From Tomocerus qinae (taxonomy: Eukaryota; Arthropoda; Collembola; Entomobryomorpha; Tomoceridae): a stretch of DNA of 64,000 nucleotides. Below are positions 6,161 through 49,479 of this stretch, one piece after another. Numbering within the stretch: the stretch's first letter is position 1; every line of letters starts with the position of its first letter. The position numbers were made by a program, and so were the translations under genes. A model generated the notes under the pieces. The model ran no database searches. It was not told the origin of the DNA and was given only the letters and a program-made list of their open reading frames with translations. Location of the stretch: contig CM034546.1 in NCBI GenBank assembly GCA_020055645.1, positions 13,144,001 through 13,208,000 on the forward strand, given 5' to 3'.

Positions 6161-8293
6161 CTACTCCAACAAGTTCTTCACCTCGTATAGTTTACGTTCT
6201 TTAAAATGGTCTAACCATCTTTGGTAAAGTCCCGAATGAGTCACAAAACGTAACTTCTCTCTCAGAAATGTGGTGAACATGGGAATTAACTTGTTTCTAA
6301 AAGAAGTATGTACAGTCATAGGAAAAAACGGGTTTTCATCACTTCCTTGATATAATCGCTTGACGGGCCGAAATCCTCCCCTTTTAGGATTCCAGTAAGA
6401 ATCGTCCAGAGTTCGGTGCAAACGAGAACTTCTGATTATGAATACAGAATTGTTACACTGGGATAGCCATTCTGAGGGGCTGGTTGAAAAAAATCCAAGT
6501 GGAAGCCGAAACATTTTGAAAATTGCATTGACTGACTTTACTGTGTTTAAGCCGATACTTTTCTTGTGCTTTGAAAGGTAAGACTTCAAAAACGGCAATA
6601 ACTTAAATAATTTCCTTGAAAATCTTAACTTGTTAAACAGTACAACAGTATCATCGTCAACTACATCATTTAAATTATTCCACGAAAAATTGGCGGTTAA
6701 ATTGCGAAATATTATACATTCGGGAAAAATGATTAAACGTTTACATACCTTGAATTCTTTTAGGAATAATCGTTTTATTGTCTCAACTACATTTAGGTTC
6801 ATGAGTAAAGGAGTTAGCTCAAAGTTATTCTTAAATTCACCTAGATCGGTAAAATTTGGTAATTTAGCCAAATGTTCCATGGATTCAATTTGTTTAACTG
6901 GCCTTGGCTCAACTAAATCCGTAGTTACAATTCCCTTGTAACCATTTGTAAGTACAATAAGCATGAGAAGCAAAGGACCTATTATTACTTTGACCCAAAG
7001 GGTTTTATCGACCTGTGTTGATAACGGATAACTGGCCTCTAAGATATAAGCCCAGAAAATCAAAGCGAACGGAAAACTATTATAACTTTTGTAAAATCTT
7101 ACTCCGTAGACGAAAGCAGTTACAATAATTACCGAAATCAGGAGCCCTATCCATGCATAGAGTTGAAATGGTTTAGCGTATGCATAAAAAGAAAGACTTT
7201 CATCTTCCAAAACGACGCAGGAAATAAAATTGATAGAATCTTCCATTGTTGGAATTACTATGTATTGAGCTCCAGGAGACCTCCAATAAGACTCTTGTTG
7301 GAAATCAAACTCGATATAGTTATTTACCGTCACACTTGAACTGCCAATTACTAGCGTCAAATTTGGTAAATTTTGGAAAATCATTGAAGAAATTGGAAAT
7401 GACGGTCCCAAATCTTCGTCTGAAAAAGGTTTTGTGAAAGAAGTTTTCTGAATCTGTGATCCAAAGTATTTTCTACTATTTCCTTCCCAAGTGTAACCGT
7501 AGTGAATTATTAAACGTGCTGAGTTTGGAATATTACTTTTTGTTTCAAAGTTTCTAATTGCTAATTGACGTAATGTATGACCAAAGCAATATCTTCCGGA
7601 ACATATAGGAAAAATTGTAAACGTGAATTCTTTAAAATCAATACCTATTGACTGTGACCAAATAGAATACACAATGGGATCGCCTAGATCATCCAAAGAC
7701 AAGATAAACCATGATTTACGGTAAAATAGACGATATATGTTTGTATAACTGTAGTCGCTACCATTCATTGAAATCTGGTCTTCAATAAACATATTGCGAC
7801 CTGACTTGACCAGATCTAAGTACACTTTCTTGGCAATCACGTAAACAGAAGTATATTCTTCGAAATTGTACGAATTGAGCCAATTCACCTGTAATTTCCT
7901 GTGTAATTTTTTGGAAAAAGTTTCACTGATGTAATTGATTATTAATATTTCTTTCATAGTAGTAAAGTTGACATCGGCCAAAATGTGCGTCACACAAACA
8001 AAGCGGCTTAGAGGTCGAGGGGAAGAATTGTTTACTCCAATAATACAATCAATGTCATCTTCAGGGTCAACAACTTCAGATATTAAACAATCAAAGAAGA
8101 TTTGTTCTTTCAGCCTCGTAAATGCAAAAGGGATATCCAACTCTTGCAATGACTTCTCCAATGCTCCAGTAAAAGGCTTATCTTGGACTAAAACATTGGT
8201 ATAGCAATCTTTTTCAATTTCCACAACGTCCTTCAATTTCCAACCCAAACACAATGCAATCCACAAAAATGTCAACACTAAATATGCCAGCAT
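6161..8293 (-). CDS. Divergent ionotropic receptor (IR), frame interrupted before M4
   Basis: A ligand-gated channel of the iGluR/IR superfamily, expected in the membrane of chemosensory neurons. I prefer the start at 8293, the second Met of the 730-codon frame that opens at 8353, because it begins a clean signal peptide (MLAYLVLTFLWIALCLG). About 350 residues of divergent N-terminal and S1-like sequence follow. M1 (LYAWIGLLISVIIV), a short pore/M2 region, and M3 (LLLMLIVLTNGYKG), followed by the S2 lobe, are all visible. The end shows the familiar GLYQRW motif that precedes M4 in IRs. The frame then stops at 6161 and M4 lies just beyond in another frame. It is not closely similar to the two other IRs here. 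It could be a recent pseudogene, or intact with an assembly error. Confidence 0.85.
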   Translation of the reverse strand: MLAYLVLTFLWIALCLGWKLKDVVEIEKDCYTNVLVQDKPFTGALEKSLQELDIPFAFTRLKEQIFFDCLISEVVDPEDDIDCIIGVNNSSPRPLSRFVCVTHILADVNFTTMKEILIINYISETFSKKLHRKLQVNWLNSYNFEEYTSVYVIAKKVYLDLVKSGRNMFIEDQISMNGSDYSYTNIYRLFYRKSWFILSLDDLGDPIVYSIWSQSIGIDFKEFTFTIFPICSGRYCFGHTLRQLAIRNFETKSNIPNSARLIIHYGYTWEGNSRKYFGSQIQKTSFTKPFSDEDLGPSFPISSMIFQNLPNLTLVIGSSSVTVNNYIEFDFQQESYWRSPGAQYIVIPTMEDSINFISCVVLEDESLSFYAYAKPFQLYAWIGLLISVIIVTAFVYGVRFYKSYNSFPFALIFWAYILEASYPLSTQVDKTLWVKVIIGPLLLMLIVLTNGYKGIVTTDLVEPRPVKQIESMEHLAKLPNFTDLGEFKNNFELTPLLMNLNVVETIKRLFLKEFKVCKRLIIFPECIIFRNLTANFSWNNLNDVVDDDTVVLFNKLRFSRKLFKLLPFLKSYLSKHKKSIGLNTVKSVNAIFKMFRLPLGFFSTSPSEWLSQCNNSVFIIRSSRLHRTLDDSYWNPKRGGFRPVKRLYQGSDENPFFPMTVHTSFRNKLIPMFTTFLREKLRFVTHSGLYQRWLDHFKERKLYEVKNLLE

Positions 8294-8353
8294 TTTGGGA
8301 TAGTAAATTATGTGTAATACAAATAAAAAAGAGTCATAAGGTAAGATCAACAT

Positions 8354-10166
8354 GTACGCACGAACAAAATTTAATGTTAATGCCGTATTTGATGATCTAT
8401 AATATCCTCATCCCCGTGAATATTTATATCCGCATAAAGACTTTAGTTTACACTTTGAGTAGTTTGACTTCACTGAAGAGACATATTATGCCAAACATTA
8501 GCATGACTTAAATGCATAGTCACGAGAGTCGCGACCACGACATATTCTAAACTATTATTGGATGAATGGGAGTCGAACTTTTTGCTTTTATACTGATGAT
8601 AGAAAAGTCTTTAATTATTTTCACATCGCAAATTACTCTGAACATTACAAAAACACTTTTATGTTAAGTCTTTGTAAACGCCACACCACATTTTTATTAA
8701 TTAGGATTTCACAGGCAGAAAGATGTCTTCGGAGAGGTTCAAAGGGCTTAGAATATTCATATTAAAAATGGGGCCACTAAATGTCAACTAACTTCACGTT
8801 GTTTCAAAGTACGTCCGTACATTGGATGTAAGTACTACTCACATACTCACATTGTTTATATGTATGCTTTAACTTATTTACATTTAGCTTGCTAGCTATT
8901 CTATTAGTGAAGTTTAGCCTTCCGAGGAATAAGTAATGACTCTTCGCGGACAAATTGGCGGCGATTAAGCAAACAAAATAAGTTTTAGAAAATAAGACAA
9001 TGGTATGTTTAATTCGCCCAGGGAAGCAAGCTATGAAACCGCAGGCGCCGCAGTCTAACTGCTTGTTCGTATGAAAAATCATATTGACTGAATAAAGGAA
9101 AATATCAAAAGATTTTCTTAATCAAATTTAGAAGAAATAAAATCTGTCAGGATTTTATTTATTTTATATATTTATTTATTCTAAACTTTTTTACAACTTC
9201 ATTTGCTGATTCTACAGCTATTTGTCCCTTAAGGAACGATTTAGCCCCAATGCACTGTTTGCTCAATACAATGTTTTTATATAATCCATTTTCAAAAGGC
9301 TAATGGCTAATTCACACATTAATTTAGTCCTAGAAAAGCTTTGCAGCGTGAGCCTTTGTACACTCTATACTACTCAAAATTAATTTAGGTTTCAAAAACA
9401 GAAAAATACATACTGGGATAATTTAAAATCATAGGAGACAATCATTTTACAACTTGGGCCACTTAGTCGTCTCTGTTTGCTGTAGCTTGAAAGTCACTGT
9501 ATGCTAGTAAATGATTTGACAGTTAAGTAAGCACTTTTTGAATTGGCACTTTTGGACATTGAGATTGCCAATTGGCAGTTTTATTTTGAACTTATATATC
9601 CGGATACCGTAGTAAATATAATATTCAGATCGCTTACGTGTTTTAACTTGTTTACATTTACAATAGCTTAAATATTCGGGTTTGCTTAATGTTTGATTCC
9701 GTGTATTCTAATTTAAACATGTCTAAGCACACTAAGCAGTATGAAAACCAAACTTTGCTAAACCTTCCGAAGAATAAATAATGTTCTTGGCGGACAAATT
9801 GGGGACGTCTGGTCAAACAACTTTAGTTTGAGAAAATAAGACATTTGTACTAGGACCGCAGCCAGAAAAATACTTCTTGAAGTCGAACAAATTATAAATA
9901 GAAATACATACCATTTAGTTTAAGGTATTTTTATTTCCGGAGGACATACACCCTTCTACTGCTAGTACCACTTCTTGTTGATTGCCACTCTTACATTACC
10001 CCGTGCGTTTGAAATAAACATGGCAAAAGAAAGTATGGACCTTTGAGAGAGCTTATTGTTTTAGCTTCGCTTCTACCACGAAAGGCCTTATATGTAGCAA
10101 CTAACTAAATTAATTTTAATTTGTTTATAATCAATACTAAGGAATTAAAAGGAATTAAAATTAAAA
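8354..10166. repeat. Intergenic stretch with two repeat pairs
   Basis: No gene recognised. Bases 8448-8655, just upstream of the IR gene, match 15128-15335 at the 3' end of the matrix-type gene (shared 'gtttacactttgag', 'atactgatga', 'gaaaagtct', 'tctgaacatt'). Bases about 8850-9005 match about 9640-9850 (shared 'ccttccgaggaataa/ccttccgaagaataa', 'gcggacaaattgg', 'gaaaataagaca'), so this is a local duplication about 850 bp apart. Confidence 0.7.
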
Positions 10167-15354: not shown

Positions 15355-18300
15355 TTAGATAGCAGAAGGGTCATCGCTGCAGGCTACTTCGTCAGAGCAA
15401 TCATTGCAGTCACAATTTCCATCATCATCGCATTGATATTCTATTGGAATGCACTGACCGTTGGAACATTGGAACTCCGTGATATTGCACGAATCTTCAA
15501 CCCAAACACCCCAAATACAGAATTTTAGAGTGAATAAACGCAACACGCACATGCAAATCAATAATAAACCATTTCAATTTTTAAACTAAATCCTATGAAA
15601 AATCTTTGATTAATTAGGTTATGTTTTTTTTGAATTTCGGATGTCCCCCTAAAATACAATCTTGCGTTTCAAAAAATCAATGCTAATAATTACCTTCATT
15701 AATTACCAATCCAGTTTGTTCTCGCCCTCGAATGCTTTGATTTGGAGGACCATTCGATTTGACAATTACTTCGGCCACAGCTTCTGCTACACCGGCTTCG
15801 TTTGCAGCACGACAAGCGTACCGCCCACCGTCTGTTACTTCAATTCCTGGGAACTTTAACAAAAAATTGAATACTTATATGTACTATTAAAAAATGATTA
15901 AAGTACACCTTAAATTAGTGATTATCTTACTATTAACTGCGAGCCATTGATGATCATTGAAGTAGGTCTTAAATCAGTTTTAAACCAGTTGATGGTAATT
16001 GGTTGTCCTCCCGTTACAATGCACATAATTTCGACAATGTCTCCTATTCTCACAATTTGTTGAGCCGGTTGCAACTGAATTCTTGGAAGAGAAAGCAGAG
16101 CTGAAAAAGTTCAAGTTCATAACTGAAAATAAGTTCGTTCGTTCAGTTCAATTGAGCTGATCGAACGAACTGTTGAAGGATTTCGGCCATGACAGAACGA
16201 ACGAACTAGAAATTTTTTACCGAATGATTGATCGAAATTAAAAAGTAGCATCAAGTTCAATTCAATCCACATGCAACTTAATGTTACAATACCAATAGGT
16301 CCATCGTAGCTATTCGATAGATAAACAGATATTTCATTTGAAATGCCGCAATACATATACAAAGAACAAAATAGTGCTGTTTTTTATTATGTATTCGGTT
16401 TTTCAATTCAACTTTTACGAAATGATCGAGTTTTAATTTCGCGAACTGAACGATATTTTTTTTCGTCGTTCAATACAACGAACGAACTAATCGAGTAAAC
16501 TTTTTCAGATCTGGGAGAAACTATTAATTTTTACGTCAAAAAATTAATTTCATTTTATTTAGCTGTAAGGCAACGTTGTAATTTTTTACTTAAGGACGTG
16601 TGGAGACTTTCATCAAATATTGTTCATAAAAATCGGCTAAACGTACAGTAATGCGGTTTTCAGTTCCCAGAAATCGTAAATAAAGCACGAAATACAGCAC
16701 TAGCAAGCAACATAAATTGTAAATTAACTTCCGCCAGTTATATAGTATGCCGTATGCCCTACCTTCAAATTTGCAATCAGGTCCAGTAAATCCAGGCACG
16801 CAAAGACAAAGTAGTTGACCGTCTTTAAATCTGCACCCTACAGCATTTTTTCCACAAGAACAACGTTTACAAACTCCACCGGTTCCAACAGAATGATCAT
16901 TTGGATCACGATAGTATCCTTCCCCACATGACTAAGACATTCACAGATACAGTATTACATGCATTGCAATTTGCAAAAACAAAGACGAACGCAGCGGTAA
17001 TACTCAATTCCCTACGAATCAATTTTGTAGGTTTGATAGAATTATTTTTAAATGTTCAAAATTTGTTTTACTTTTCAATCATACTGGGAATAAATACCAC
17101 AGTAAATATAAATTTTTAAACACGTTTTACTTCACAAGAAAGTCCTTCGTAGCCAGGTGGACATCTACATTCCTCTACTTCCATTACAATACCATTCGGG
17201 GTATAGTGCCTAACGGCATCATCCAGCGAAACATCTTTGATATAGGTTGCTTCCATCTCTCCGGTGAATGATGCTCGGATAAGAATAGCCTTTAGGTCTA
17301 CTAGGACTGATAAAATATCTTCTCGACTAGCCATTTCTTCATCACCTGCCAAATGTCTCCATCCTGCAGTTTCTCTCAGAGTTACTTCAAAGCCCTGAAC
17401 AAGATATATGTACAGATTTTCTAGGATGGATGTAACATTTGCACAAACATGTCACAAATCTTACAGCTTCTTGTCCAGACATTGGAGAACGATTATACCA
17501 GGACAACGAAATGTTGTTATTGCCGACAAAAATGACATCAATATCTTCATCAGGTGTGGCGTCACTTCCTGTACGAACCGAATACCTCCTAATAGCTCTA
17601 AGTTTACCTCCATATGAGGCAATCTAATACATTTCAAAGCAACTAGCATTAAGTTAAAATATTATTGGTATAAGTACTGTTAGATACTGTAGAGTGCATA
17701 CCCTGTTGCCTGTAAAATTTTGGGGAAGCGACCAATATATTCGCTCAGATCTTGTTGATGGCGGGTATCGATAAGATAATTCCCTCGTATTTGTGTCCAC
17801 CGATACATTCTGAACGGATTCTGTTCTTGCACTGTGGTATTCATAAGTTTGGTAACATTATAGCAATAGCATTTTGCTGTAATAAATACACTCGTTTCTC
17901 AAAATTAATCAAAAAAATTTGAACAAACCGGTCAGTTAGGGTGACTCCATGAGGACCGCTGAACAATTGCAAATCTTGTGTTGATCTGTACAGATTGGCA
18001 GAGGAGCATTCTGTGCTGAGTTTAGAGCAGAAGCATTCTAAGCAATCTTTTTGTGGGTTAAGGTTTTCCAAAGCAAAATGTCCTTGCTTGCACGAATTAC
18101 AAATTGCTGTCTCATTTCTTTCCTGAAAAATTAGTGAAAATGAAAAAAAGTTACGACCATTTTAAAATAAAAATAGTCTTTATTCTACATGGTAAGAATA
18201 GCAACTAAAACCTATAAGATAGCTCTTCATATCCACTATCCACAAAATTTACGTGGTTTTTGTAGAAGCTGTATTGTCAATTACAATTTTTACCTTTACA

Positions 18301-25245: not shown

Positions 25246-27123
25246 TCAAAAACGGCGTACTAATGTTTTATTAAAGTATTTATTCCAAAGTCCCAACGAA
25301 AATTCCATCACGAAAATCATTGAAGAGGCTAAGGATAAATATCCGAGTAAAATAAAAACAGTATGAATTTTCATCCACAAATTAATGCTCTTGGGTCTGA
25401 AGCTTTCATATTTGATCTTTGCTTCCAATCGATACACACGGTATTTTTGTGGATCATGGTTTGCCCACATTTCGAAAAATCCCTTCTCAAATAAACGGTA
25501 AGAATATAATTGGTACTCATGTCTAAAGGCCATTTTATAATACCATGTGACGGCGTAAGTAACAGCTTTTTCTTTAGCTATGCTGCACTTTACGTTTGGA
25601 AATTTCTTATGAATAACTTGTAAATTGTACTCACTTGTCGATTTGGGTCTTACACTGGTTAACTTTAACGTAAGATTTCCCAGAAGTTTAATATGCAAAT
25701 TATTATAGTCATATCCCTGTCTCCTGTAATCGGGTGCTGTATTATCCCATCCCCAATCATACACATAAGTACCATTTTTAATTTTATCATCAATTCCATT
25801 TTGGTGAAATACCTGATCTGAATTTACCACAACGGTACCATGTTGCTCTTGCACTAATACCCTGTATCCATTTTCTAGCAATTCTTTTATGTTTTCAAAT
25901 GTTTTCTTCTCTAGCGGTACAACTACTTCACTTGTTATGTAAGTTTCGTACAGGCATGAAATGAAAAAGGACATTGATACTACAAATAATGATAGAATCA
26001 TTTTCTTCTTAGCTGCCTCATGTTGTCCTACAAAGTTCGATATTGTTGATAAAAAAGCTGATACAATTTTTCTAAATATTTGCGTCGTACCTGAACCTGA
26101 TGCAAAAATTAGAATTATATTTGCTAGAGGAAAAAGAACAAAAATTAGTGCCCAACAGATATCATCAAATGTTTTTTGAACTAAAACTGATAATGGTACA
26201 CTGAGAAAAGTTTCTTCAGCTTCGCAATAAATCGCTACACCGTCTATATAAGATGGTACAAACATTTTCTCAACAAAGAAATATGCTATCTCATTTGTGT
26301 ATTCATCACCAATGAATATTAGTGACAAAGATTCGTTGAGCATTACTTTTGGAATTCCACTGTAGCCAACATACACTGCAGTAAAATTGAATTTCGCTGC
26401 CATTATTTCGACAGTCCTGTACTCCGGCGGACAATAATAATAAAATTTTGTCAAATGGTAAGTAGACTGGAGGCAATATTTATAGCTATAACGCTCATCA
26501 GTGCTAATGCTCTCATGCTTTACAGCGACTTCGTTGCCATGGATATTTCCATTCACGCTATTCCAAACTAATATCCATTTGTCTTCTGTCAACTGTGGCA
26601 TAATTTCGATAATCTTTGCAAATTCCGTTTTATACAACTGCAAAATCAGTACATCAAATTGCCATGAATTTTTTATTATAATATAGTAAAGTCCGCATAC
26701 TGAGTCAATTTTGACATTGAAAAATATGTGACGATCATATTCAGATTGGAATCCGTTATTTCGGTAGTCGTATAAAATTATGTATTGAGAAGTACGGCGA
26801 TTCACTTCTTGTCCAAAAAATTGAACCAAAGAGTAGAATGTATAATCTGGTTCTAAAAGAATGTTGACACTGCAAAGGCTGTTTGTTATATCCGTTGGAT
26901 TTTCTTCATCTCTACCGAAAAGAGATTTATTATAATTTGATGTAGCAATTGTCCATGGCTGCATATTTTGGTTAGCCATGAAAAACTGTTCTTCCCATGG
27001 TGATCCATGGAACTTAATCAAGTTGAAATCGCAGTTGCTAAACAAACTCAGATTTTTAATTGATGACACTAATAAAAAATTGGCCTGAAAATATACACTG
27101 ATAAGATAATAAACCGAAAACAT
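25246..27123 (-). CDS. Divergent ionotropic receptor (IR), intact, copy A
   Basis: A single-exon frame of 625 residues, complete from a hydrophobic N-terminus (signal peptide, residues about 1-20) to a C-terminal RRF. There is no glutamate-receptor amino-terminal domain beyond a divergent about 230-residue region. S1 holds PSYIDGVAIYC. M1 is about 321-341 (ICWALIFVLFPLANIILIF), the pore/M2 region about 352-368, M3 about 375-398 (MILSLFVVSMSFFISCLYETY), the S2 lobe about 403-570, and M4 about 582-610 (KIHTVFILLGYLSLASS). A ligand-gated cation channel of chemosensory type is the family expectation; ligand unknown. The canonical SYTANLAAFL of iGluR M3 is replaced, so this is a divergent IR. Its paralogue at 40173-42053 carries a nonsense codon. 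Confidence 0.9.
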   Translation of the reverse strand: MFSVYYLISVYFQANFLLVSSIKNLSLFSNCDFNLIKFHGSPWEEQFFMANQNMQPWTIATSNYNKSLFGRDEENPTDITNSLCSVNILLEPDYTFYSLVQFFGQEVNRRTSQYIILYDYRNNGFQSEYDRHIFFNVKIDSVCGLYYIIIKNSWQFDVLILQLYKTEFAKIIEIMPQLTEDKWILVWNSVNGNIHGNEVAVKHESISTDERYSYKYCLQSTYHLTKFYYYCPPEYRTVEIMAAKFNFTAVYVGYSGIPKVMLNESLSLIFIGDEYTNEIAYFFVEKMFVPSYIDGVAIYCEAEETFLSVPLSVLVQKTFDDICWALIFVLFPLANIILIFASGSGTTQIFRKIVSAFLSTISNFVGQHEAAKKKMILSLFVVSMSFFISCLYETYITSEVVVPLEKKTFENIKELLENGYRVLVQEQHGTVVVNSDQVFHQNGIDDKIKNGTYVYDWGWDNTAPDYRRQGYDYNNLHIKLLGNLTLKLTSVRPKSTSEYNLQVIHKKFPNVKCSIAKEKAVTYAVTWYYKMAFRHEYQLYSYRLFEKGFFEMWANHDPQKYRVYRLEAKIKYESFRPKSINLWMKIHTVFILLGYLSLASSMIFVMEFSLGLWNKYFNKTLVRRF

Positions 27124-27199
27124 GTTCGAAAACTATAGAAATCTTGAAATTGATTTGCTACGTAATAAAAATTGTTTTTTGAACAGTTTTTTCAAATGA

Positions 27200-40172: not shown

Positions 40173-42053
40173 TCAAAAACGGCGAACTAATGTTCTATTG
40201 AAGTATGTTTTATAACGTCCCAATGAAAATTCTACTATGAAGATTATTGACGACACCAAGAGTAAATAGCCAAGTAAAATGAAAACAGTATGAATTTTCA
40301 TCCAGAGATTAATGCTCTTGGGTCTGGAGCTTTCATATTTGATTTCTGCTTCCAATCGATGTATAATGTAAATTGCTGGATCATGGTTTTCCCACATTTC
40401 GAAAAATCCTTTCTCGAATAAACGGTAAGAATGTAATTGGTACTCATGTCTAAAGCCCATTCTATAATACCAGGTGATGGCGTAAGTTACAGCAGTTTCT
40501 TTAGCTTTACTGCATTTCACGTTAGGAAATATTTTATGAATAACTTGTAGACTGCTCTCACTAGTCAGTTTAGGCCTTACACTAGTTAATTTTAATGTAA
40601 GATTTCCCAGAGTTTTAAGGTACAAATTATGATAGTCATATCCCTGTGTCCTATAATTTGGCGCAGTTGTATCCCATCCCCAATCGTACACATAAGTGCC
40701 ATTTTTAATTTTATCAGCTATTCCATTTTGGTGAAATACCTGATTTGAATTCATCACGACGGCACCATGTTCCTGTTGTACCAATACTCTGTATCCATTA
40801 TCTAGCAATTCTTTTATATTTTCAAATGTTTTCTTCTCTAGCGGGGCAACTACTTCACTTGTTATGTAAGTTTCGTATAAACATGAAATGAAAAATGACA
40901 TTAATGTAACAAATAATGATAGAATCATCTTCTTCTTAGGAGCCTCATGTTGTCCCACGAAGTTGGATATTGTTGATAAAAAAGCTTTTATAATTTTAAT
41001 AAATATTTGCGTCGTCCCTGAACCTGATGCAAAAATTAGAACTATATTTGCTAGAGGAAAAAGAACAAAAATTAGCACCCAGCTGATGCCATCAAATGTA
41101 TTCTGAACTAAAACTGATAATGGTACACTGAGGAAAGTTTCTTCAGCTTCACAATAAATCGCTACACCGTCTATATAAGATGGTACAAACATTTTCTGAA
41201 TAACATCATAACACGTTGTCTCATTTGAGTATGCATCACCAATCAATATTGTAGACAAAGATCCATTGTGCATTACTTTTGGTATCCCCCTAGAACCAAC
41301 GTATACTGCAGTAAAGTTGAATTTCTCTGCCATTACTTCAACAGTTCTCTACTTAGGCAGACAATTATAATAGAATTTTGTCAAATGGTACGTAGATTGG
41401 AGACAATGTTTATTGGTCGAACGCTCATCATTGCTGATCTTCTCATCTTTTACAGCGACTTCGTTGCCATGAAAATCTCCATTCAGTCTATTCCAAACTA
41501 TTACCCATTTGTCTTCCGGCAACTGTGACCAGACTTCAATAACCTTTTTAAATTTAGTTTTATACAGTTCAAAAGTCAACACATGAAACTGCCATGAATT
41601 TTTGATGATAATATAGTAAAGTCCGCTTACTGAGTCAATTTTGTAATTGAAAAAATTTTCACGATCTATTTCAGATTGGAATCCGAAATTTCGATAGTCG
41701 TATAAAATAATGTACTGAGAAGTACGGCGATTCACTTCTTGTCCGAAAAATTGAATCAAAGAGTAGAATGTATCATCTGGTTCTAAAAGAATGTTGACAC
41801 TGCAATGGCTGTTTGTTATATCCGTTGGATTCTTTTCATCTCGGCCGAAGGCAGATTTATTATAATCTGCTGTGGCAATTGTCCATGGCTGCATGTTTTG
41901 GTTTGCCATAAGAAACTGTTCTTCCCATGGTGAGTAATGGAACTGAATCAAGTTGAAATCGCAGTTGCTAAACAAATTCAGATTTCTAATGCACCACACA
42001 AATAAAAAATTGGCTTGAAAATAAACAGTGGTAAGATAACTGACCGAAAACAT
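40173..42053 (-). pseudogene. Divergent ionotropic receptor (IR), copy B, single in-frame nonsense codon
   Basis: Paralogue of the intact receptor at 25246-27123, alignable along its whole length in one frame (627 codons). Signal peptide, S1, M1 (VLIFVLFPLANIVLIF), pore, M3 (MILSLFVTLMSFFISCLYETY), S2 and M4 (KIHTVFILLGYLLLVSS) are all preserved. The only lesion I see is TAG at 41349-41351, where copy A has TAC (Tyr235). Downstream the frame stays open for 392 codons, with an in-frame ATG at 41333. It is either a young pseudogene, a sequencing error, or a receptor using stop-codon readthrough, as is known for Ir75a of Drosophila sechellia. Confidence 0.9.
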
Positions 42054-42499
42054 GCCCGAAAACTAAAGAAATTCGGGAAATAATTTACTATAATAATTAT
42101 TCTTTGGACTTTGTTATGCGCTTTTTATTAGTTAGTATTCGTAACAAATATTAGAAGAAAAGAAATGTTTTAAAATTAATTCAACTGTATCAATAGAATA
42201 TGTTTCAATTGATTAATTTTTTGTGTTTCGAAGTAGAACAGTAAGCAGGGGAATATTATTGTAGTTTTGTGCATTCACACAAAGATTGCTTTGAAAGTTG
42301 AAGTCCGAACTAGAATAGTAAGCAGGAGAAAATTATTGTAGTTTTCGACATTGAATGACACTGACATTGCCTTGAAGGATGAATTGCAAATTAGGTGGCT
42401 GCCTCATTTCTCATAGGATAAATAATTTCTTCCCACACTATGTACACACTTTCTTCTGTTGTACCAACTTGCCTTAGTGGGAGTGTTGAACAACTATTT

Positions 42500-44901: not shown

Positions 44902-47900
44902 TTATTTGAAAAGAGAGAACTTCAAAGTGTACACATAACCCCATGCGGTAATAGCTGTCAGTTTGAATCGTTTTGCATGACCGCCTGCTTCACTGTATAA
45001 GAAATGATCTGTAATGCCATTTTTCCACGAAGCCACACCACCCTGAAATAATTATCCGTATTCATATTTAGTATTATTACAGATTCCATTTAGATTGCTT
45101 TAAGTGTAGAAAAAAGGTCTTAAGCGTCCCTCTTTCAATAAATATCACTTACAGCAGTTGGCCATATACACACAAAGTATTTCTTCTTAGGGAAAATTGG
45201 GACTGGTTCGCTCAAGTCAATAATTTCCACTTTGCCAGCTTCCGCGATATAAATGGTCTCCATTTCACATAATGGCTGTCCAACCAGTAGAAATCCTTCA
45301 CCTTGAGATACTTTGATTTTCATGGTGGTTCTCTCACTTACTTTAGATGGGCTTCCCGCAAATCCCACTCCTTTCAAGTAAATGGGCGGGTCTCCTTCAT
45401 ATTCGTCGACTTGAAAGCTGAAATTAAAATAAATTATTTTCTGATGGGACAACTATGCAAGAAATGCCATTTACCTTGTTCCAAAAAGATAATCATTGAA
45501 GTGATTGGCATCCAATTCATGCTTTAATGTGAAGTCGGAGTATAATTGGACAATTTGTTCTTCAGTTGATCCTGTAGAAGGGGATAGGATATCCGTTACA
45601 TTCACCAGCGGTTTTCTGGAATAAAAAAAGAGATGTAATAAACTAGTCGACCATGCAGTAAAAATCTTAGATTATCTAAAGCCAATCAATATAATGAAAT
45701 ACTTTAAATAAATTTTTGAGTGAAATTTTTAAAAATCGTAAGCTTTTTCGACCAAAATGCTTACGATGTGTCAATTTCATTAATATTATTGTATAATACT
45801 TACGCATCTTTCAATTCTTTTTGATGTTGCTCAAATTTTTCAATGGCGATAGAGCTATGTTTCCTGAAGGCAGAATTCATTATCTCTATAAACTCCTGTA
45901 TAATGCAATCTGGTAGATTTTTAAATTGGAGAAGCATTTGATTTCTTATTTTATCTTCGACTTGGCCTTTTTTTCTGCAAAAATCTTGCGTTTCCTTCAT
46001 TTCCTTAGCAATAATTTCTAATTCTTGGGTATAAAAATGTACAGTTGTACGTAGCTCATTTTCAAACTGTTTTACAGCTTCTATCTTCTTTTCATTATTT
46101 TCTCTCTCCAACTCCAAAAATATTTGGTTTATATCATCGGCCAAAAATGATTGAAATGCTGCCGTACTATCAAAATTTTTTTCATGTTCTTCAACTACTT
46201 GTTCCAGAATAACGCCATGATACTCCTTTAACTGGTCCAGGGTCAGAAATGACTTTACACCTTGTTTATAGGTCATCATCTTTGTATGATATTCTTTAAC
46301 TGCATTAGAACGAGTCAAGCTCAGTTTGGAAATTTGTCTCTCTTTCTTCAACTCCCAGCTTGTTTTATGTTCAGCAAAAATGGTATCAATATCGTTTTCT
46401 AAGTGTGAAATATGACTTTGCAAACTCAGTTGTTCATATTCCTTTGGAAGCAAGTCGAAGAACCGTGACATACTATCATTTTTAAGCTGATTATGTTGGA
46501 AATCAATTTCAGTCTCTGAAATTGTATTCTCAGAAAACAAATTATTAACACTTTGAATGTAATTGCTCTTTACAAAATTTGCTTGTTGTTTTACAGTATC
46601 TTCCATATTTTTTAATTTTGTAGCCGCCTGCACTCGAAATTTTTGGTACTGATTTTCAGCCATTGCATCAAATTGTTTTTGTATATTTTCTTTTGCATTG
46701 GAGGATAGGGACTGCTTTTGTATTTCTTCTAGTAAGTAACAAAGACCCTCATTCAAAGCTTTTTTGTGTACTACTTCCACATCTTCTTCACTTAAAAACC
46801 CATTCGAATTACTTTCGATATATTTTTTGTATTCATCAAATGCCATTAAATGAATCGAATTGATCTTTTTATGCTGTTCATAATCTGTTTGACTTTCCTT
46901 AAACAAACAAAAAAATTACATTGAGATATAACAATCAATTCAATTCATGATAACCAAAATATTGAAATTTTCCAATTCAACATTTTTATTCCTCTCAAGT
47001 CAAGAAATCAAGTTTTTTAAAACTTACCCTTAATTTCAATTGTATATTTTTCGTACCGTCGCCCACCTCAATCCGTTTGGTTGGTTCTCTTTCCGTCAGT
47101 CGCAGTATCAGTGAATTCAGCCAAGATATATTTTTAATTACACTTCCTGTTTTTCTTCCATGAATAATTTCCCCAAATTTCCATGGTAATTCGGTTTCTT
47201 TTGCAGGATCAAAGATTTCTGATAAAATCAGTCCAAACGAGAACCAATCCGCATGTTGACCATATATTGCTTTGCCATCTGAATATTCTTCTCCCATTTC
47301 AGGTGCCCGATAGTCTTTGTTCCATTCCACTAATGACATTGCTTGATCCTCGTGATTTTTATTTTGAGTGGAAAACCCAAAATCCCCAATTTTGATGGGG
47401 AAAACAAAATTTATGTGTGAAAAGTAAATATTATCTGGTTTTAGGTCTCATGAATTAGTTCTTTTTCGTGTATGTAACATAAACCATCCGCTATTTCTTG
47501 GCCAATCAACCCGCACATAGACAATTCTGATTGAATGTTCTCCTTTAAAAGTTTGTTAAGCCATTCTCTAAGCGTTTCCCCACAAAGTTCCATTTTTATG
47601 ATAAAACCAGTAACTGATCTATTCTTGGCAGAATCAAAACAAGTTTCGAAATATTCTCGTGTGGAAATTGAAATTTTGGTTGTGCCGTCCCATTGAAGTA
47701 TCTCTTTTATATCTCTTGTGAATAATGAAAACTTTTCACATGATTTGTATTTAACGACATTCAGATGATTAAGTTTTGCATGATTTCTCACTTCCCGAAT
47801 GGTATCATGTTTCCCTAAGCGACCTTTTCTGTCTGGGATGATTTTTATTGCACAAATAAGCTGATCAATATTGTGCGTTGCTGAAATAACTACACCAAAA

Positions 47901-49479
47901 GACCCGCTGCCCAACACTTCGTTAGTTGTATAATTCCAATTCTCGATTACATCGTCTGTAAAAATAATCCATACTTTACAGAATATGTCAGTCATTATAA
48001 TTTATTAATAGGCATACACCCAGATAGTGGATCGGGTTTTATGAGCTATTTTTTCTGTTGTTGAAAACCTCAACCCACTAAACTGAGAAAATTCAGAAAA
48101 GAGTTTTTTGGATTTCTATAGCTGTAAAGTAGCTATAACTAGGCACGGCACACTATGGCTGCGGCAAAGCACGGCTTTGCCGCAGCCATTGTGTGTCTCT
48201 TTTTTAACGGTGTTTTACGAGATCGAGATATACTTTATGCTTGGCCAAAGCCAAAGCAAACAATGGGTACGGCTCGTATTGTGGACAAATAACTTGGTCA
48301 GGCGAAAGCAATGACAATGAATGTTTTAAAAACTATCTCCAGTTGCTATTATTTTTGCTTGAGTAGGGAATTAATAGTTTTATTTTAATTCTTGTATAAG
48401 TTAGTACCGAGTCTCCGTAATGTATCCAGAATTTGTTGTGCTAAATGTCCAGCAGTATTTACTTCCAGGGCAGCCAGCAAGAATGGTAACACTCTTTCAA
48501 TAGGTTTTCTTGAGATGGTAGTGTAAAATTTACTGTTCCTGTCTTGCAACGTCGTTTTTGACATCTATAAAAATATTAATGGCCGAACAATCATTGTTAC
48601 TTGTCGTATGTACTAATTTCCTTAAATAATTCCTGTAATAAAATGTTCTTTCCAGAGCTGGAAAACATTTGAGCTCATTTGAACCCGAGCATATGCTCAA
48701 ATCTACCCGGATACATTTGACCATCCCAAGCCAATTTATTTGAAACCGACAAAAGGTAATTGAGGATGTGTTCGGGATCAAATTATCCCGCAGATTAATA
48801 TTTAGACTTTTTTGAAAGCAAAATATTAGGAATCAGTTCATCACACTTTAACACAAAAATGTTAGGTTCATTCCCCAAAAATATTTGTCACTAAAATATT
48901 GTCGCCCCCCCCCCGAAATGTTTTTATGGCTGCGGCCCTTATAAAATGTATTAAGTCATTTTATGTAACTTACATTTTTGTGCAAATAATCTGTCACCAC
49001 GGTTATAATACGAATTATTACAAGTATTGAGAACAATTAGGAAATTATGTAATAGTGTATCTGACACTAATTCTGTACTTAACTGTAGGAAATTTTAATT
49101 TGTTAGTATTTAGATATAGACAAATAACATCTTAGTTTATACAATAATTGCTTGAAAATAAACACCTCCCTCTCCATTACACATTATCACACATATCGGC
49201 ATCAATATTATTTTAATGTGAATTAAAATTTGTTGGGAAATATCAAAATATATCAATAGTACAATAAAAATGACTTACAATACAGTCGACATCATTGTCT
49301 GTTAAGTTATGCGTAGATAGCATATAGAGACACAAATTCGACAGGGATGCATCCGTTGTACCTTCCACCAAAAAGTAAATCGAAGTTATGATAGCTTCTC
49401 TAAAATCTTCGTCATTCCAGTTGTGCATTTCTAACTTTCTTTTGTATTCTTCAGATTTACTGCTCACTAAGTCTGACAT
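44902..49479 (-). CDS. CARD-like / eIF2-alpha-kinase-like / GBP-helical-like / PHR-like protein (seven exons, one-base deletion)
   Basis: Exons: 49479-49279, 48564-48408, 47955-47028, 46897-45804, 45615-45475, 45417-45153, 45042-44902 (TAA). All phases match if one base is restored in exon 3, giving about 975 residues. About 20-118: CARD-like (LSTHNLTDNDVDCI, then FLLAALEVNTAGHLAQQIL). 120-429: kinase with G-loop GSGSFG, CAIK Lys about 157, a long insert, then KMELCGETLREWL, DLKPDN and IGDFG, the style of PKR/PERK/GCN2 eIF2-alpha kinases. 430-793: charged helical region; its start (MAFDEYKKYI, LSEEDVEVVHKKAL) recalls the GBP/atlastin helical domain, with no GTPase. About 842-975: PHR-like beta domain (IYLKGVGFAGS, EPVPIFPKKKYFV). 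The deletion removes one base of the HRD Arg codon at 47449/47450 and gives a stop at 47441. Innate stress or immune signalling is an inference. Confidence 0.75.
48151..48193. repeat. Perfect 15-bp hairpin in an intron of the CARD-kinase gene
   Basis: ATGGCTGCGGCAAAG and CTTTGCCGCAGCCAT (48155-48169 and 48175-48189) pair around the loop CACGG, and outer bases pair partly. It is GC-rich compared with its surroundings and lies in the intron between exons 2 and 3. Confidence 0.85.

Follow-up and report, generated by a model that had tools for sequence, protein, structure and literature searches.

The minus strand of the analysed window, a continuous 64-kb stretch of DNA with a G+C content of 32.4%, carries seven predicted exons that run from position 49479 down to 44902 and can be joined with GT/AG borders. 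The six junctions are phase-compatible, with phases of 0, 1, 0, 2, 2 and 0 from exon 1 to exon 7, and this reading of splice sites and phases confirms the coordinates, the strand, the seven exons and the six matching phases of the preliminary description. The predicted joined product has 975 residues. The features of the gene and of its product are:

49279-49479, minus strand: exon 1, 67 codons from the ATG, encoding the beginning of the CARD-like region; donor ATT/GTAAGT, phase 0
48408-48564, minus strand: exon 2, 52 codons and one base, remainder of the CARD-like region; phase 0 in, 1 out
47028-47955, minus strand: exon 3, PKR-type protein kinase with an internal frame break
47441-47452, minus strand: frame change from the HRD His to the Asp, with a TAA in the N-lobe frame
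45804-46897, minus strand: exon 4, atlastin/GBP-type helical region without a GTPase; phase 0 in, 2 out
45475-45615, minus strand: exon 5, encoding a linker and the first part of the beta domain; phases 2 and 2
45153-45417, minus strand: exon 6, encoding the core of the PHR-like domain
44902-45042, minus strand: exon 7, end of the PHR-like domain; acceptor TTTCAG, phase 0; the stop TAA overlaps AATAAA
Residues 1-119: exons 1 and 2
Residues 120-429: kinase (exon 3)
Residues 430-793: helical region (exon 4)
Residues 794-840: linker (exon 5)
Residues 841-975: PHR-like region (exons 6 and 7)

The donor of exon 2, GTACTA, is the sole weak splice site of the predicted gene. Exon 4 is stop-free over about 365 codons and is considered coding because a run of that length has a chance below 1e-12 per start, as calculated from the base frequencies. 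The in-frame codon score of exon 5 and of exon 7 is the best among the six frames of each exon, and codon usage does not separate exons 1 and 2 from the background. The predicted gene is present as a single copy, with no further copies within the 64-kb window, and Rfam and tRNA scans of the window gave no matches. The intron between exons 2 and 3 contains a near-perfect inverted repeat of 47 bases (48149-48195, 89% to its own reverse strand), which is perhaps a small mobile element.

Other features were observed on the minus strand of the window. A 748-codon ORF at 6161-8407 is receptor-like by eye and has no Pfam or NCBIfam match. Laminin B and EGF-like exons are located at 16590-17451, and the segment 17116-17451 matches Pfam Laminin_B with 1.9e-13. 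Two gene copies at 25246-27132 and 40173-42062, which we take to resemble divergent ionotropic receptors, are 80% identical over 629 residues and have no Pfam or PDB match; the copy at 40173-42062 features an in-frame stop where the other is open.

The kinase exon and its frame break

Exon 3 matches Pfam Pkinase with 2.6e-33 when an X is placed at the frame break. The best PDB match is PKR (6.2e-24), followed by PERK (2.2e-20) and GCN2 (4.1e-15), and eIF2-alpha kinases occupy the first 13 rows before any other family among the best 60 of 1633 PDB matches. These results bear out the earlier call of an eIF2-alpha-type kinase and strongly place the sequence in that family, a membership that refers to a sequence family and not to a working enzyme because the frame is broken between the HRD His and the Asp. 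A protein search found 10 sequences below E 0.001 among 8000 candidates scored. The closest kinase, P0001, is 41% identical over about 300 residues, which make up 30% of the query; a partial PKR from Folsomia candida, P0002, is 39% identical over about 300 residues, and P0003, also from F. candida, is 29% identical. These closest kinases suggest that the sequence comes from a springtail or an animal near to springtails.

The Gly loop, the Lys, the HRD His, the Asp, the DFG and the APE are all present in exon 3, but not in one open frame. The N-lobe frame runs into a TAA at 47441-47443, directly after the HRD His, and the DLKPDN...DFG...APE half of the kinase is read in another frame from 47447. 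The two halves lie in overlapping minus-strand ORFs, 47441-48001 and 46995-47447, and each ORF matches Pfam Pkinase by itself (7.1e-14 and 3.8e-12). A small intron spanning the break was considered and rejected, as inspection by eye found no GT...AG pair that would spare the catalytic loop. The preliminary description did not report the frame change. Because the frame changes in the catalytic loop, an intact kinase is impossible from the gene as assembled. One lesion in about 975 codons points to either a young pseudogene or an assembly error. In the case of a young pseudogene, the locus would have had this architecture in the past and would no longer make a working kinase. We regard this as a serious possibility that falls short of being probable. 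It is consistent with a single frame change within the catalytic loop, immediately followed by a stop, and with the neighbouring gene copy at 40173-42062, whose frame is likewise interrupted by a stop that its open, 80% identical counterpart lacks. However, the lesion count is just one, exons 4-7 are open, and a sequencing or assembly error may also be the source of the break.

The substrate of the kinase was considered from an alignment to PKR, with the activation-loop Thr and the helix-G docking residues taken as markers of the PKR type. The alignment has Asn at the Thr451 position and Ser at the Thr446 position, and helix G aligns ambiguously. Asn is also found at the Thr451 position in P0001 and P0003, and P0002 has Ser there. 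Since the Thr451 position is Asn and the alignment of helix G is ambiguous, we only infer eIF2-alpha to be the substrate. The same two features would suit a signalling kinase of intact type that works as RIPK2 or IRAK do and phosphorylates an immune substrate other than eIF2-alpha; this reading appears somewhat unlikely, and the 13 leading rows of eIF2-alpha kinases among the PDB matches argue against it.

The regions flanking the kinase

The N-terminal region encoded by exons 1 and 2 had been called a CARD. Pfam CARD gave no match to it up to E 10, and the claim stands only as a suggestive likeness to a local profile built from ten CARD sequences, all of which match CARD in a Pfam check (nine above the cut-off; Dronc, at 21.6 bits, falls below it). 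Against this profile residues 1-125 obtain 12.4 bits, a score reached by one of 2000 shuffles (at 19.2), in a test that is not selection-free, as exon 1 had been picked beforehand by the earlier reader. The next best score in a set of 499 tiles taken from other sequence, real or ORF-derived, is 4.4 bits. Known CARDs score 21-57 bits in a leave-one-out comparison, against 12.4 for residues 1-125, and the region itself scores 9.4-14.1 bits against the ten leave-one-out profiles. Profiles of other death folds scored 0.9 bits (death domain, reached by 182 of 1000 shuffles) and 0.6 bits (DED, reached by 366 of 1000) on the same region. Exons 1 and 2 may thus encode a CARD-like part, with a likeness that is better than chance and better than that to other death folds. 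A PDB sequence search with the N-terminus returned only ribonuclease chains, at E 1.2-1.3. A weak Pfam match of exon 1 to DUF7893 (13-14 bits) lies below the cut-off of 27 and was rejected.

The CARD score also bears on whether exons 1 and 2 belong to the kinase gene. The kinase might instead start at its own ATG upstream of the exon-3 acceptor, with the CARD-like exons belonging to another gene or resembling a CARD by chance. The ORF of the kinase exon contains an in-frame ATG (MTDIFCK...) just upstream of that acceptor; exon 2 starts with an ATG as well and ends at the weak donor, and the codon usage of exons 1 and 2 is uninformative. Against this, the phases are compatible and the CARD match requires both exons, with exon 1 placed before exon 2: exon 1 alone scores 0.9 bits, exon 2 alone 2.0, the two joined 12.5 and the two swapped 1.9. 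Among 25 candidate exons of compatible phase within the intron, exon 2 also has the highest CARD score, followed by a shorter form of itself at 7.6 bits and then by a candidate at 3.5; the best of 92 control blocks reaches 11.4 bits. That exons 1 and 2 lie outside the kinase gene is judged rather doubtful.

In the structure comparison of exon 4, rows 1-15 and 17-19 are all atlastin, GBP-type and Sey1p chains, and those in rows 2-4, 6 and 7 match over the three-helix bundle of atlastin at 1.2-1.6 A. Sequence searches of the helical region gave no GBP or atlastin match in Pfam or PDB; the PDB search with exon 4 returned one designed bundle only, at E 0.12. The pieces scanned gave no match to GTPase families, and a GTPase ahead of exon 4 is ruled out by the preceding intron, which is 130 bases long. 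Of the earlier claim of GBP-like helices lacking a GTPase, the fold and the missing GTPase are upheld and a sequence relationship is not. Exon 4 has good support by fold as a set of GBP/atlastin-type helices without a GTPase, and the protein is not classed as a GBP because the dynamin-type GTPase domain is absent. The exon could also encode an ordinary coiled-coil or spectrin-like bundle whose likeness to GBPs and atlastins is convergent, but the rows filled by atlastin, GBP-type and Sey1p chains and the close fit to the atlastin bundle make this distinctly unlikely. A weak Pfam match to DOCK_C-D_N (17.6 bits, cut-off 23.5) was not accepted.

The PHR-like sandwich proposed for the C-terminus is weakly supported. 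The exon-6 ORF, 45135-45452, matches Pfam PHR with 19.4 bits (E 0.0016) over profile positions 22-100 of 151, which is below the cut-off of 23.6, and exons 5-7 match with 18 bits (E 0.0044). None of eight controls, one reversed and seven shuffled, gave a PHR match. A PDB sequence search with exons 5-7 returned nothing. Exons 6 and 7 may weakly be assigned to a PHR-like domain from these profile matches.

Proposed architecture and known systems

Protein searches with exons 4-7 (7996 and 6769 candidates scored) found no relatives at E <= 10, and no kin with the same domain order were found in protein searches. For this reason the apparent fusion depends on a single copy, on the phases of its splice sites and on the shortness of its introns. 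At a probability of about 0.45, slightly below even, the locus is read as a lineage-restricted animal gene, from an arthropod and probably a springtail, that was built by exon shuffling from a CARD-like bundle, a PKR-type kinase, a GTPase-free atlastin/GBP-type stalk and a PHR-like end, that would act via kinase clustering, and whose copy in this assembly is either a young pseudogene or the product of an assembly error. In the most likely mode of action of such a protein, the C-terminal half would either self-associate or bind a partner, which may be a trigger, a membrane or the surface of a pathogen. Clustering via the C-terminal half, the CARD-like part or both would bring the kinase domains together, and these would activate one another as PKR does. 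The output would be the phosphorylation of eIF2-alpha, or of another substrate, and phosphorylation of eIF2-alpha would stop translation in the affected cell.

P0001 and P0002 share the kinase with the predicted protein, but a comparison with exons 4-7 found nothing similar in either. The N-terminus of P0001 weakly matches Pfam HEPN_Swt1 (16.9 bits, below the cut-off of 27.5), that of P0002 scores 10.2 bits to another HEPN family, and an RxxxxH motif is seen by eye in both. Both proteins thus combine a PKR-like kinase with a possible RNase-type (HEPN-like) N-terminal fold. A CARD at the C-terminus of P0002 was rejected, with a score of 2.7 bits that 13 of 2000 shuffles reached and no Pfam CARD match. 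Since P0001 and P0002 carry a different N-terminus, the domains joined to the kinase appear to differ within this group. A broader and unlikely reading is that some springtail-lineage arthropods have a family of PKR-type kinases shaped by domain shuffling, with sensor or adaptor parts exchanged around one kinase (HEPN-like in P0001 and P0002; CARD-like, GBP-type stalk and PHR-like in the present gene), leading to an oligomer-triggered translation-arrest immune receptor that would sense via a GTPase-free GBP-type stalk. If intact alleles exist, PKR-like translation control in an arthropod would be wired to death-fold and GBP-type modules and not to dsRNA-binding domains, and the gene would offer a testable example of exon shuffling around a kinase as a source of immune receptors.

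The order of CARD, kinase, helical and PHR parts was not found in the accessible text of the open-licence literature, including PMC2575513, PMC5644144, PMC9005921 and PMC9573974. These papers report many novel immune domain combinations in amphioxus (PMC2575513) and combinations of DEATH and kinase domains in the same animal (PMC9573974); they also call the presence and function of GBPs in invertebrates unclear and describe a silkworm atlastin as antiviral (PMC9005921). RIPK2 likewise has a kinase and a CARD in one protein (PMC9573974). However, its kinase comes first and its CARD last, the kinase is of another family, and RIPK2 lacks both a helical and a PHR part. Atlastins and guanylate-binding proteins share with exon 4 the fold of the helical domain that follows their GTPase, but the predicted protein has no GTPase domain and no detectable sequence kinship with them. 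The PHR domain proteins compared, which we take to include the PAM/Highwire/RPM-1 and BTBD types, resemble the C-terminus through the partial Pfam PHR match below the curated cut-off, and the pieces scanned gave no RING or BTB match. P0001 and P0002 are alike in the kinase (41% and 39% identity) and differ in their N-terminus, which is HEPN-like by a weak Pfam match in P0001 and by the motif seen by eye in both. The likeness to PKR (EIF2AK2), PERK and GCN2 lies in the kinase domain, for which they are the best PDB matches, with Asn at the position of PKR Thr451. In place of a dsRNA-binding, luminal or HisRS-like part, none of which was found, the predicted protein has CARD-like, helical and PHR-like parts.
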